Shown here: positions 21,577 to 25,234 of the stretch, piece after piece
How positions within the stretch are numbered: the first letter of the stretch is position 1
Layout: the number at the start of each line of letters is the position of its first letter
NCBI GenBank assembly: GCA_019115845.1
Contig: DXCU01000063.1
Coordinates: 1 to 64,000 of the forward strand
DNA: 64,000 nt
Reading direction: 5' to 3'
Source of the DNA: Candidatus Rubneribacter avistercoris
Lineage (GTDB): Bacteria > Actinomycetota > Coriobacteriia > Coriobacteriales > Eggerthellaceae
The notes under the pieces: model-generated
What the model was told of the DNA's origin: nothing
Database searches by the model: none
Seen by the model: only the letters and a program-made list of their open reading frames with translations
Position numbers and translations under genes: made by a program

Positions 21577-21652
21577 TGGTGGAGATGAAGGGATTCGAAC
21601 CCTCGGCCCCCACGTTGCGAACGTGATGCTCTCCCAGCTGAGCTACATCCCC
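21577..21652 (-). tRNA. tRNA-Ala, anticodon CGC
   Basis: On the minus strand the molecule starts GGGGATGTAGCTCAGCTGG and ends CATCTCCACCA, with the acceptor stem GGGGATG/CATCTCC. The anticodon stem TCACG/CGTGG encloses the loop TTCGCAA, giving anticodon CGC for GCG codons. The T arm has GGTTCGAATCC. CCA is encoded. A terminator follows directly. Confidence 0.95.
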
Positions 21653-21780: not shown

Positions 21781-22041
21781 TCACGCATCGAGGGGTCCTT
21801 CGTCCTCTGACGCGCTTTCAGACTTTTCCGACTGGCCCTCCGGCACGTACGCGAGGATGTCCCCCGGCTGGCACTGGAGCACTTCGCAGAGCATGCCGAG
21901 CGTCGAGAACCGAACCGCCTTGATCTTGCCCGTCTTGATGCGGGACAGGTTCACATTGGTGATGCCGACCTTCTCCGCCAGGTCGTTGAGGGAGATGCCC
22001 CTGTCGGCCATGAGATCGTTGAGTTTCAGGACAACCGGCAT
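21781..22041 (-). CDS. XRE-family helix-turn-helix regulator (YozG-like)
   Basis: 86 residues from ATG 22041 with AGGTGGACTT before it. The helix-turn-helix occupies about residues 8-62: LMADRGISLNDLAEKVGITNVNLSRIKTGK, then FSTLGMLCEVLQCQPGDIL. This is the small Cro/CI type that nearly always accompanies a DUF2975 membrane protein, as it does here eight bases upstream. An acidic tail ends the protein. It probably regulates its own two-gene operon. Confidence 0.85.
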   Translation of the reverse strand: MPVVLKLNDLMADRGISLNDLAEKVGITNVNLSRIKTGKIKAVRFSTLGMLCEVLQCQPGDILAYVPEGQSEKSESASEDEGPLDA

Positions 22042-22049
22042 AAGTCCAC

Positions 22050-22580
22050 CTACAGGGTGTCGTCCGAGAACTCTTGCAGAAGGACGCCGTACTTGAACAC
22101 GAACGAGAACGCGAAGACGACCGCTGCGGCGACAATGGGGAACAAGTTGAGGGTGGGCGTTCCGTGCATCGGAAAGCCAGAAGAATCTTGCTGCATAAAC
22201 GAAGCACACAGTGTCATTCCGAACTCTAAAACAGCATACGCCAGCAACGTTGCAGAAACCAGCCGCAACCTTCTAACCTGTAACAAAGTAAAAGGAGAAC
22301 GCCCCTTTGAGGCATCCGAGAAGATCTGAATAAGAGTGACGCATATGATGACCATGGCCAGGCCGCAGAAGATGAAATTGATCAAGGCAATCGGAGTAAC
22401 AGGATTATCCGAATATCCGGGATTTGCCACAGAGAGTCCCATGACCACAACCGAAGCACACCACCAGCAGCATAGTAGCAGAAAAACCACCTTTATCAGA
22501 ATGCCTGCACGCTTGCAAGCATTACTCGCTTTGGTAAGAGACTCTTCCGCCTTTTTTACGTCCTCATCTGCTTCAACCAT
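22050..22580 (-). CDS. DUF2975 membrane protein
   Basis: About 176 residues from ATG 22580 (a GTG at 22613 would add eleven). Four hydrophobic segments are visible: LIKVVFLLLCCWWCASVVVMGL, IALINFIFCGLAMVIICVTLI, LVSATLLAYAVLEFGMTLC and LFPIVAAAVVFAFSFVFKYG. Between helices 2 and 3 stands GRSPFTLLQVRRLRLVS, the DUF2975 hallmark. Function is unknown; it forms a conserved pair with the XRE regulator. GC content is visibly lower than in the surrounding genes. Confidence 0.75.
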   Translation of the reverse strand: MVEADEDVKKAEESLTKASNACKRAGILIKVVFLLLCCWWCASVVVMGLSVANPGYSDNPVTPIALINFIFCGLAMVIICVTLIQIFSDASKGRSPFTLLQVRRLRLVSATLLAYAVLEFGMTLCASFMQQDSSGFPMHGTPTLNLFPIVAAAVVFAFSFVFKYGVLLQEFSDDTL

Positions 22581-22630: not shown

Positions 22631-22670
22631 AAACAAAGAAGGCCTCTTCCGCCAAAACGAAAGAGGCCTT
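22631..22670 (-). terminator. intrinsic terminator after the peptide gene
   Basis: AAGGCCTCTT (22639-22648) pairs with AAGAGGCCTT (22661-22670); on the minus strand the stem is followed by CTTTGTTT. It separates the radical SAM/peptide transcript from the DUF2975 operon. Confidence 0.65.
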
Positions 22671-22700: not shown

Positions 22701-22784
22701 CTAAAACCCGATAGCAAAGCAGGAGCCGTTAAACCCAATGGGATAGCACACGGAGCGCGGGTCGGCTTCACTGTAGAACAGCAT
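22701..22784 (-). CDS. 27-residue two-cysteine peptide, probable RiPP precursor
   Basis: ATG 22784 stands seven bases behind AAGGAGGTGA, whose last bases are the end of the radical SAM gene. The peptide begins MLFYSEADPR and its second half contains two similar blocks, VCYPIGF and SCFAIGF, joined by Asn-Gly and ending at the stop. Tiny Cys-containing peptides next to SPASM radical SAM enzymes are the hallmark of ribosomally made, post-translationally modified peptides in which Cys sulfur is linked to another residue. The precursor here lies downstream of the maturase, with a leader of only about ten residues. The role is inferred from position and repeats; the peptide family is not recognised. 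A terminator follows. Confidence 0.65.
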   Translation of the reverse strand: MLFYSEADPRSVCYPIGFNGSCFAIGF

Positions 22785-22790
22785 ATCGTC

Positions 22791-24032
22791 TCACCTCCTT
22801 TGCTTGATCGATGCGGCCATGGCTTGACCCAGCGTGTCGTAGAACGTCTGGGTCATCAGGCAATACGAGTCCTTCGACTTCAGATTGCCCGATTCGAACA
22901 GCGAGCGGGCCCTGCAGCCTCCCCCGCAGATTCGCATATAGCGGCACGACGAGCAGCCCTCGTACTCTTGGACGTCGAGGTCGCGAAACATCCGCGACAC
23001 CTCGGAGCGCAGCGCGTCGGCCAGCAAGCCCGTGAAGGCGTTTCCCATCGCGAACTCGGGCCGATGGAGCATGTGGCACGGGTAGACGGTCCCGTCGGCC
23101 GCCACGCTCAACGTCCGAAACCCCGCCCCGCATCCGTTGCGCACCGTCAGGTTCACGCCCACCGGCGCGTCCATGGCCGAAAGGGGCTTGCCGCCTCCCA
23201 GCGTGAGCAGGCTGCGGCCGAGGGCGCGCAGCTCCTCCTCCCCCGGCAGCAGCGAGGCCAGCTCGCCCTCGGGTTCGCAGGAAAGCAGGCTGAAATTGAG
23301 CGAGGCGCCCAAATCCTCTGCGAGCCGGACGTATTCGGGCAGCTCGCCGACGTTTTTCGCATGCGCGGTGGGAATGATGTGCGCCGGGATGCCCGCCTTG
23401 CGCACGCGACGCACCGCGTCCGCCAGCTCCTCGAAGCGCTGCGCGCCCCGGATGGGGGCGGGCGCGTCCGCCGAGCAGCCGTCGAAGGAGACCGACACGC
23501 AATCGACATGCGGGGCAAGGCGCTCCAAGGCCGCGTCGCTTATGCAGGTGCCGTTCGACAGCACCGTCACGTTCGCGATGCCCGCCCGCTTCGCATGCGC
23601 GACGATGTCGGGAAGGTCGTCGCGCAGAAACGGCTCCCCGCCCGACACGATCACCCGCGCCACGCCGGCCTGAGCCAGCTCGTCAACGGCATGCAGCACA
23701 TCATCCAGCGGGGCGTCGGCAAGCGCGTTTCGCTGGGCATCGAGGGAATAGCACCCAGCGCACGCCAGGTTGCAGCGCTGCGTCACATGCAGATACGCCG
23801 AGACAACCTTGTCGTCCTGCAAAGGATGGTCGAAGAACCCGCCTTTGACCAGATGCTCGAGCAGCGCGGGGTCGACGGCCGACACATCCTGCTCGGGCAC
23901 GTCCTCTTCGAACATGCGGGTGCACACGGCGGCGCCCTGCTCGCTCAGCCCGATCACGTAGCCCGTGGGCAGGCAGCCCACCAAGGGAATGCCCGCGAAA
24001 TCGAACATCACAACCTTGTCGTCAAATCTCAT
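22791..24032 (-). CDS. radical SAM/SPASM peptide maturase
   Basis: 413 residues from ATG 24032 behind GAGGAGCCCGC. The first 75 residues resemble a PqqD-like peptide-recognition domain. The radical SAM core has CNLACAGC (CX3CX2C) and VSGGEPFLRDDL. The C-terminal SPASM domain binds extra clusters: NGCGAGFRTLSVAADGTVYPCH, then CSSCRYMRICGGGCRA and SYCLM. This domain order is that of sactipeptide, ranthipeptide and related RiPP maturases and of PqqE or MftC. The gene ends inside the ribosome binding site of the 27-residue peptide gene, its likely substrate. A divergent LysR gene lies upstream. Confidence 0.88.
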   Translation of the reverse strand: MRFDDKVVMFDFAGIPLVGCLPTGYVIGLSEQGAAVCTRMFEEDVPEQDVSAVDPALLEHLVKGGFFDHPLQDDKVVSAYLHVTQRCNLACAGCYSLDAQRNALADAPLDDVLHAVDELAQAGVARVIVSGGEPFLRDDLPDIVAHAKRAGIANVTVLSNGTCISDAALERLAPHVDCVSVSFDGCSADAPAPIRGAQRFEELADAVRRVRKAGIPAHIIPTAHAKNVGELPEYVRLAEDLGASLNFSLLSCEPEGELASLLPGEEELRALGRSLLTLGGGKPLSAMDAPVGVNLTVRNGCGAGFRTLSVAADGTVYPCHMLHRPEFAMGNAFTGLLADALRSEVSRMFRDLDVQEYEGCSSCRYMRICGGGCRARSLFESGNLKSKDSYCLMTQTFYDTLGQAMAASIKQRR

Positions 24033-24322
24033 GCGGGCTCCTCGTCAGACCAGATCGCTCCTCTTAAGAAGAATTATGGTGGCGCCCCCCTTCGCGCCAA
24101 AAGAAAAAGAAATACGCGCCTTCAATCAAACGTTGCAGCGCTTCTTGCCAAACTGTGATAAATGATCCGGAAACGTATCCATGCGGTTACACTTCAAACC
24201 CCCTTTTCCATCTGGGGGTTCCTCTCGCTCCAATCCCCCATCGAAACGCGACACTCATTTAATGTTTTATGATAAATTTTGCACGGCAGCTTTTGGAAGG
24301 CGAGACGGAAGATCGGACGTTC

Positions 24323-25234
24323 GTGAACATCAACCAGCTGGAATACTTCGTGACCGTCATGGAGTGCGGGAACTTCTCCATGGCGGCGAAGAGGCTCTTC
24401 GTGACGCCGCAAGCGGTCTCCAAATCGATCGGCGACCTCGAGCGGGAGCTTCATGTGCAGCTGTGCGAGAAAACCGGCCGCAGCATAGAGCCCACGGCGT
24501 TCGGACGCGTGTTCTCGCTGCGGGCTTCCGAAGTGCTGTCGTGCCTTGCGGACCTTGAAACGCTTGCGAAAAGCCAGTCGCAAGCGCAGTCGCAGGAAGG
24601 AGCGGTCTCTTTGGCGGTGGCGCACTCGACATGCCGCGGCAACGTGCTGAAAGACGGGGATTTCTCCCTGTTCAGAAAGACGTACCCGCGCATCGAGCTT
24701 TCGGTGTCGTTTCGCGCGAGCGGGGCGTGCCTGGCCGCTGTGGAGGACGGCGCCGTGGACGCCGCCGTGATTTTGGGCCGAGCGAACAGGGAGGGGCTCA
24801 CATGCATCAAGCTTCATTCCATACCGCCGCACGTGATGCTGTCCGAGCGCCATCCGCTGGCTTCGAAGAAATCGCTGACCTTGGAGGACCTGCGCGGCGT
24901 GCCCATCGCCGAGCCGGAGGATCTGCGCTGCTGCCGGAGCACGGTGACCGAGCACTTCCGCGCAAAGGGGATCGAGCCGCTCTACGTGCCGCTGGACCCG
25001 ACGCCCGCAGGGCAGAAGGATTTCCTCGACAAGGAGCACGGCGCGATGTTCGTGGTGGCGGACCCCTCCTTGAGGAAAGCCCACCCCGCATCCGTGGTGC
25101 GACCCGTCGCGCCCGAGGACATAGCGCCGGTGCCGCTGTGCTTTGTCAGATCGAACAACGACGGCAAGCCTTTGCTGCACCTCGAGCACTATCTGCTAGG
25201 AACGGCAACGCGCCTGCGGCGAAAGCGCGCTTAG
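24323..25234 (+). CDS. LysR-family transcriptional regulator
   Basis: About 303 residues from GTG 24323, which gives the standard LysR start (NINQLEYFVTVMECGNFSMAAKRLFVTPQAVSKSIGDLERELHVQLCEK). An upstream ATG at 24269 would add 18 untypical residues and has no ribosome site. The C-terminal substrate-binding domain contains VSFRASGACLAAVEDGAVDAAVILG. It is divergent from the radical SAM gene with about 290 bp between them, so control of the peptide locus is the likeliest role. Ligand unknown. Confidence 0.85.
   Translation: MNINQLEYFVTVMECGNFSMAAKRLFVTPQAVSKSIGDLERELHVQLCEKTGRSIEPTAFGRVFSLRASEVLSCLADLETLAKSQSQAQSQEGAVSLAVAHSTCRGNVLKDGDFSLFRKTYPRIELSVSFRASGACLAAVEDGAVDAAVILGRANREGLTCIKLHSIPPHVMLSERHPLASKKSLTLEDLRGVPIAEPEDLRCCRSTVTEHFRAKGIEPLYVPLDPTPAGQKDFLDKEHGAMFVVADPSLRKAHPASVVRPVAPEDIAPVPLCFVRSNNDGKPLLHLEHYLLGTATRLRRKRA

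Follow-up and report, generated by a model that had tools for sequence, protein, structure and literature searches.

Does a 27-codon reading frame directly behind a radical SAM/SPASM gene encode the substrate of that enzyme, and what would such a peptide do for the bacterium that makes it? The frame lies in the window, a stretch of 64,000 nucleotides from Candidatus Rubneribacter avistercoris (contig DXCU01000063.1, positions 1 to 64,000). An earlier note on this DNA had given the coordinates of the maturase and of the 27-residue peptide, the 6-nt gap between the maturase stop codon and the peptide ORF, and a ribosome site within the 3' end of the maturase gene, all of which were exact. By sequence comparison, the maturase-peptide pair recurs across gut Coriobacteria, including the human gut species Eggerthella lenta, and its informative partners are a DUF2975-like protein and an HTH regulator. 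We read the locus as an undescribed RaS-RiPP family whose peptide may be specifically recognized by the DUF2975 partner, acting as an immunity protein or a receptor.

Table 1. Features of the locus, in window coordinates
Feature	Coordinates	Strand	Length	Basis or remark
Radical SAM/SPASM peptide maturase	22791..24032	-	413 aa	Pfam matches, ORF coordinates, homologue alignment, AF2 model
Precursor peptide MLFYSEADPRSVCYPIGFNGSCFAIGF	22701..22784	-	27 aa	Conserved counterparts, Shine-Dalgarno (SD) site, coding-type substitutions
Perfect SD site AAAGGAGGTGA (AAAGGAGG), overlapping the maturase stop codon	22785..22801	-		Sequence
Terminator-like hairpin, weak U tract; separates the peptide gene from the DUF2975-like gene	22639..22670	-		Sequence
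DUF2975-like 4-TM membrane protein	22050..22580	-	176 aa	PF11188, 30.2 bits (cutoff 27)
HTH_26 (Cro/CI-type) regulator	21781..22041	-	86 aa	PF13443, E 1.8e-22
Divergent LysR-type regulator	24269..25234	+	321 aa	
Promoter-like site, ~40 nt before the maturase start	24073..24100	-		Consensus match only
tRNA-Ala (cgc)	21577-21652	-		Just past the HTH gene

The earlier note had framed the locus with a divergent LysR gene and a terminator. The LysR gene is where the note had it, and a terminator-like hairpin does follow the peptide, but the locus continues beyond that hairpin into the DUF2975-like and HTH_26 genes, with the tRNA-Ala gene as a possible boundary. Compared with shuffles of the sequence, stems were stronger at 9 of 16 related loci, the window's own hairpin was not significant by the same comparison, and four loci with a one-cysteine peptide had no hairpin or a weak one. 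Because it is so patchy, the hairpin was set aside as a conserved element, and a leaky terminator or processing site is only a possibility.

Homologues of the maturase came from 37 of 138 Eggerthellaceae genomes and 74 of 397 genomes of the order, among them a genome that is probably that of the E. lenta type strain, with the locus near 3.07 Mb. A scan of genome contigs with a single sequence gave no matches, but an alignment-based scan did find loci; the family and order sets, together with the Clostridium and Enterococcus loci from that scan, made up 82 maturase loci. A peptide counterpart was present at 77 of these, in Eggerthellaceae, Atopobiaceae, Coriobacteriaceae, and a Clostridium relative. 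This count comprises 73 peptides found by regular expression, two variants with a GTG start (L215 and L216, MQF...CVQLGFGDAPCLIIGA), one whose core is frameshifted (L219), and one in which the contig stops inside the peptide (L203). Three loci were undecidable at contig ends (L057, L199, and L086), and the contig of L086 begins just short of the position that the peptide occupies in the near-identical L288. Only L052 and L060 lacked a recognizable peptide. Both retain the maturase and HTH genes, with neither peptide nor DUF2975 recognizable; L053, the sister of L052, has both, which suggests a loss in L052. The peptide is thus kept next to homologous maturases and is unbroken in close relatives, so that neither outcome named as refuting by the earlier note occurred, and the note's central claim of an undescribed RiPP, with a SPASM maturase and its own cysteine-containing, short-leader precursor, is strongly supported.

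Other features of the frame are also those of a gene. An SD-like sequence precedes all 76 pattern-found peptides, whose starts lie 0 to 30 nt past the maturase stop codon in 49 cases and overlap the maturase end in 15. Substitutions at the three codon positions of the two-cysteine set numbered 140, 80, and 387, the third position being dominant, and the leader-coding pattern occurs as a single copy in the window's own genome. The frame is short and unannotated, as one would expect of an ORF that lies by chance behind an orphan radical SAM enzyme, but that explanation is refuted by the counterparts, the SD sites, and the coding-type substitutions, and we give it practically no weight. With the stop codon, 64 of the 76 precursors measure at most 90 nt, which is no more than the minimum length that gene callers usually apply, and this may explain the missing annotation. 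A known precursor family was ruled out: ten diverse peptides had no match in NCBIfam, save one chance match, and six motif strings were absent from the literature searched.

The window peptide consists of a 12-residue leader region and the core CYPIGFNGSCFAIGF, which carries two CxxIGF blocks. The leader begins with MLFYS in 15 of 15 Eggerthella-like loci with 12-residue leaders, and such a constant leader joined to a variable core is typical of RiPPs. Across the family, the peptide takes two forms. The 46 two-cysteine peptides of Eggerthellaceae (MLF...CxxPhiG...CxxxG-Phi before the stop codon) have a CxxPhiG block, 3 to 5 residues, a CxxxG block, and usually one final hydrophobic residue, some adding a C-terminal tail; the first core cysteine is residue 13 in 40 of the 46. 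The 30 one-cysteine peptides of Atopobiaceae/Collinsella (MLF...CxxIxxIxIGx before the stop codon) all end in C-x8-G-x, with Ile, Val, or Phe at Cys+3 and Ile or Val at Cys+8. Ile or Val at Cys+3 is found in 44 of 46 two-cysteine and 29 of 30 one-cysteine peptides and was not imposed by the search patterns, whereas Gly at Cys+4 partly was. MLF in 76 of 76 peptides is also partly by construction, since the counting pattern required it; a looser pattern gave only MLF as well. When 88 maturases were placed in a tree, a single change was enough to account for both forms (SH-aLRT 96), the pattern that an enzyme and its dedicated substrate should give. The expectation of two like modifications per peptide fits the two-cysteine form but not the Atopobiaceae/Collinsella form, which has one core cysteine.

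The maturase matches the Pfam families Radical_SAM (E 1e-23) and SPASM (E 4.5e-10). Its CxxxCxxC cysteines (C87, C91, and C94) and the complete seven-cysteine SPASM set (C301, C319, C360, C363, C369, C373, and C391) are invariant across 19 diverse aligned homologues. In the AlphaFold model (AF2; pLDDT 89.5), the N-terminus has the order b-b-b-a-a-a at a pLDDT of ~90, and residues ~1 to 65 are predicted to form an RRE fold. The N-terminal region had been called PqqD-like; Pfam gave no PqqD match there, but the arrangement predicted by the model is that of an RRE. By both sequence and fold, no solved structure is closer than that of the thioether maturase CteB (5wgg/5why), and the best solved relatives are CteB, SkfB, PqqE, an anaerobic sulfatase-maturating enzyme, and SuiB. 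None of the best 25 curated NCBIfam models came near its cut-off: the best similarity was to StsB (NF045574, 128.6 bits against 625), and the PapB-type ranthipeptide maturase model scored 76.3 bits against 340 (NF047865). With this enzyme and its conserved precursor, the assignment of the locus to the RaS-RiPPs appears strongly supported.

Some further maturase genes deserve mention. The window's genome has two more SPASM-type radical SAM genes, ~7 kb apart on contig C10 (L002 and L003), with products 30 to 31% identical to the maturase. The maturase match L054 (genome G079) has an in-frame TAG near the C-terminus, which probably means merely a shorter C-terminus; the peptide upstream is intact. 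A phage-borne origin was rejected, as the only relatives in an IMG/VR scan were weak matches to generic radical SAM proteins.

A DUF2975-like gene was present in 72 of 80 loci and an HTH_26 gene also in 72 of 80, and together with the maturase and the peptide they make a four-gene cassette. The LysR gene was present in 22 loci only and, being confined to part of the family, is accessory. That the precursor comes after the maturase is common but not universal: in seven loci, five of Eggerthellaceae and two of Coriobacteriaceae, the order is inverted to peptide-DUF2975-HTH-maturase. The DUF2975-like protein has four long helices; no structural relative had an E value below 0.001, and a full-text literature search found DUF2975 mentioned once each in two papers, under titles on mcr-8 and cyclic pentapeptides. 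Neither an exporter nor a leader protease belongs to the Coriobacterial cassette. In L043, a second DUF2975-like gene (27% identical) lies downstream of the cassette, ~4.9 kb past the maturase.

We then compared how the peptide core and its neighbors diverge. In 16 loci of Eggerthellaceae, core distance followed DUF2975 distance once maturase distance was accounted for (partial r 0.76, permutation p 0.0005), but it tracked neither HTH (-0.13) nor, in nine loci, LysR (-0.10). One-cysteine loci had a weaker link by the same measure (partial r 0.13, p 0.02), and among them the pair L186/L191 nevertheless has the same sharp divergent block. In the pairs L039/L043, L050/L051, and L048/L049, amino acid identity was 96 to 97% for the maturase and 94 to 98% for the HTH protein and only 44 to 59% for DUF2975, and identity at fourfold sites was 84 to 89% in the maturase and 29 to 35% in DUF2975. 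Along the DNA of close pairs, identity is ~85 to 100% over the maturase and first leader codons, drops after the leader codons to mostly 35 to 70% over the core and the greater part of DUF2975, and, from near the DUF2975 C-terminus, recovers to ~90% or more at HTH. The control pair L041/L042 had no such drop. For L038, the nearest maturase is in its own genus, and the nearest core and nearest DUF2975 are in other genera. Because point mutation since the flanks split does not explain the divergence at fourfold sites, alleles must have been exchanged. Thus, the core of the peptide acts together with DUF2975 like a single allele that is swapped between lineages. Within DUF2975, variation is greatest at the N-terminus and in the loops predicted to lie outside, and the inner loop and the C-tail are conserved, by a topology derived from hydropathy and positive charges.

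Relatives of the maturase also occur in 3 of 207 Clostridium-family genomes and 5 of 105 Enterococcus-family genomes. There, MLF-type peptides lie near ABC exporters, ABC-2-type transporters, and CAAX-type proteases, and some loci also have AgrB and LytTR/GHKL genes; gene sets vary by cluster, and these peptides are more divergent counterparts, some of which depart from the motif. L286, L287, L288, L289, and L293 have MLF-type precursors near ABC exporters and CAAX-type proteases, some with AgrB-like genes, and the precursors of L286 and L293 are in tandem identical copies. L292, of the Enterococcus family, has three small peptides behind the maturase that are unlike one another (MFFKSKREKSCCIQVLW..., MLFKSSKSKTACIGYILAYGWSVG..., and MLFVTKQKKSACYGPGVMLG...) and off the CxxxG motif. 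Within Eggerthellaceae, L068 (genome G111) has two tandem precursors, followed by ABC-type and further membrane-protein genes that replace DUF2975, and its gene content resembles that of the Firmicutes clusters. The earlier note had suggested that the product may act in the cell. This is less likely, since the partner that diversifies with the core is a membrane protein and the Firmicutes relatives come with exporters, proteases, and agr-like genes.

The explanation that we prefer, and consider fairly probable, is a RaS-RiPP cassette in which the core cysteines are cross-linked and a surface-acting product is recognized by the DUF2975-like protein, which protects the producer and probably reports to HTH_26. 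The maturase, probably by means of its RRE, would hold the peptide at the conserved leader MLFYSE, and radical SAM chemistry with the SPASM clusters would join each core cysteine to a nearby residue, which may be Ile/Val at +3 or else Gly at +4, so that every CxxIG block would form a single small ring. Ile/Val at Cys+3 is the position common to both forms, and a loss of 2 Da per cysteine in the product is plausible. After putative leader removal and export, the mature peptide would act at the cell surface and meet its cognate DUF2975-like protein at the membrane; that protein would protect the producer and probably also signal to the HTH_26 regulator as the output. It is possible, at rather less than even chance, that the modified peptide is an allele-specific signal or self-recognition token, read by a DUF2975 protein that controls HTH, with the same maturase and leader serving many alleles. 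If the peptide were purely a pheromone, a modified autoinducer with DUF2975 as receptor, HTH_26 as output, agr- or comQXPA-like allele groups, and no toxicity, one would expect what is seen in several respects: core and membrane protein are swapped together against an unchanging background of maturase, leader, and HTH, an HTH partner follows DUF2975 one to one, and outer loops vary where the inner loop and C-tail do not. However, the cassette has no kinase, the Firmicutes relatives resemble clusters for bacteriocins in which ABC-type genes serve export/immunity, and L068 has ABC and membrane-protein genes at the place of DUF2975, as an immunity module would. We regard the pheromone, the main rival, as doubtful and, because of these clusters and L068, slightly favor a bacteriocin-like peptide with an immunity/sensor protein over a pheromone-receptor pair.

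Adjacency could mimic partnership. Core and DUF2975 are neighbors, and recombination at the conserved leader and the DUF2975 C-terminus would move both without functional pairing, so that a real and modified peptide might covary with a protein that it never meets; the weak correlation in one-cysteine loci is in keeping with this. Against it, core and DUF2975 remain together where the gene order is inverted, and saturated synonymous divergence confined to the block and kept in several genera calls for selection, and we hold linkage without interaction to be unlikely. Still more improbable, in our estimate, is an intracellular cofactor or redox peptide like PQQ or mycofactocin. The very short precursor, the chromosomal gene, the missing exporter, and a SPASM enzyme with weak similarity to PqqE and mycofactocin maturases would suit one, but those two models stay far under their cut-offs (91 bits against 381 and 110 against 265, respectively), the cassette has neither a dependent oxidoreductase nor a processing enzyme as a conserved member, and a cofactor should be constant, whereas this hypervariable core changes along with a membrane protein.

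If the preferred explanation is true, gut Coriobacteria would have a peptide weapon or language, DUF2975 proteins would have a first suggested role, and naturally occurring core/partner alleles, all served by a near-constant enzyme, would be at hand for specificity tests and peptide engineering. If instead the peptide is a signal, peptide and receptor would make up a pair of a new class, with allele groups that can be exchanged.

NCBIfam, Pfam, and the literature searched held no description of the cassette, and that literature had nothing joining DUF2975 and radical SAM; subscription-journal surveys of RaS-RiPPs were outside its scope and possibly mention the enzyme family. The one paper of that literature to combine Eggerthella, radical SAM, and RiPPs lists, in the passages available, nitrile-hydratase-type precursors for E. 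lenta and not the present locus (PMC4289311). Among known systems, streptosactin (GGG) has 14 residues and carries two sactionine rings of 4 residues each, and streptococcal RaS-RiPPs are regulated by Rgg/SHP (PMC13361665). Streptosactin and StsB likewise join a SPASM maturase to a short precursor, and the ring pair is comparable, by description of the precursors only, to the two CxxIG blocks in the 15-residue core here; they differ in having Rgg/SHP where this locus has DUF2975 and HTH_26. CteB, of the SCIFF/ranthipeptide type, has the same layout of RRE, radical SAM, and SPASM domains at ~18% identity in the structural alignment. SCIFF precursors have six cysteines in about 45 residues, whereas the precursor here has one or two core cysteines and no SCIFF spacing. 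In the SdpC-SdpI-SdpR locus of Bacillus, a peptide, a multi-TM immunity/sensor protein, and a small HTH regulator stand together. The likeness is an analogy in the kinds of genes; DUF2975 is another family and SdpC is no radical SAM product. Finally, in agr and comQXPA, the signal and its membrane partner form a block that can be exchanged, with conserved sequence on either side. The block-exchange layout is alike here, but AgrB, AgrD, and a histidine kinase are absent from the Coriobacterial cassette, and it is a radical SAM enzyme that accompanies the peptide.
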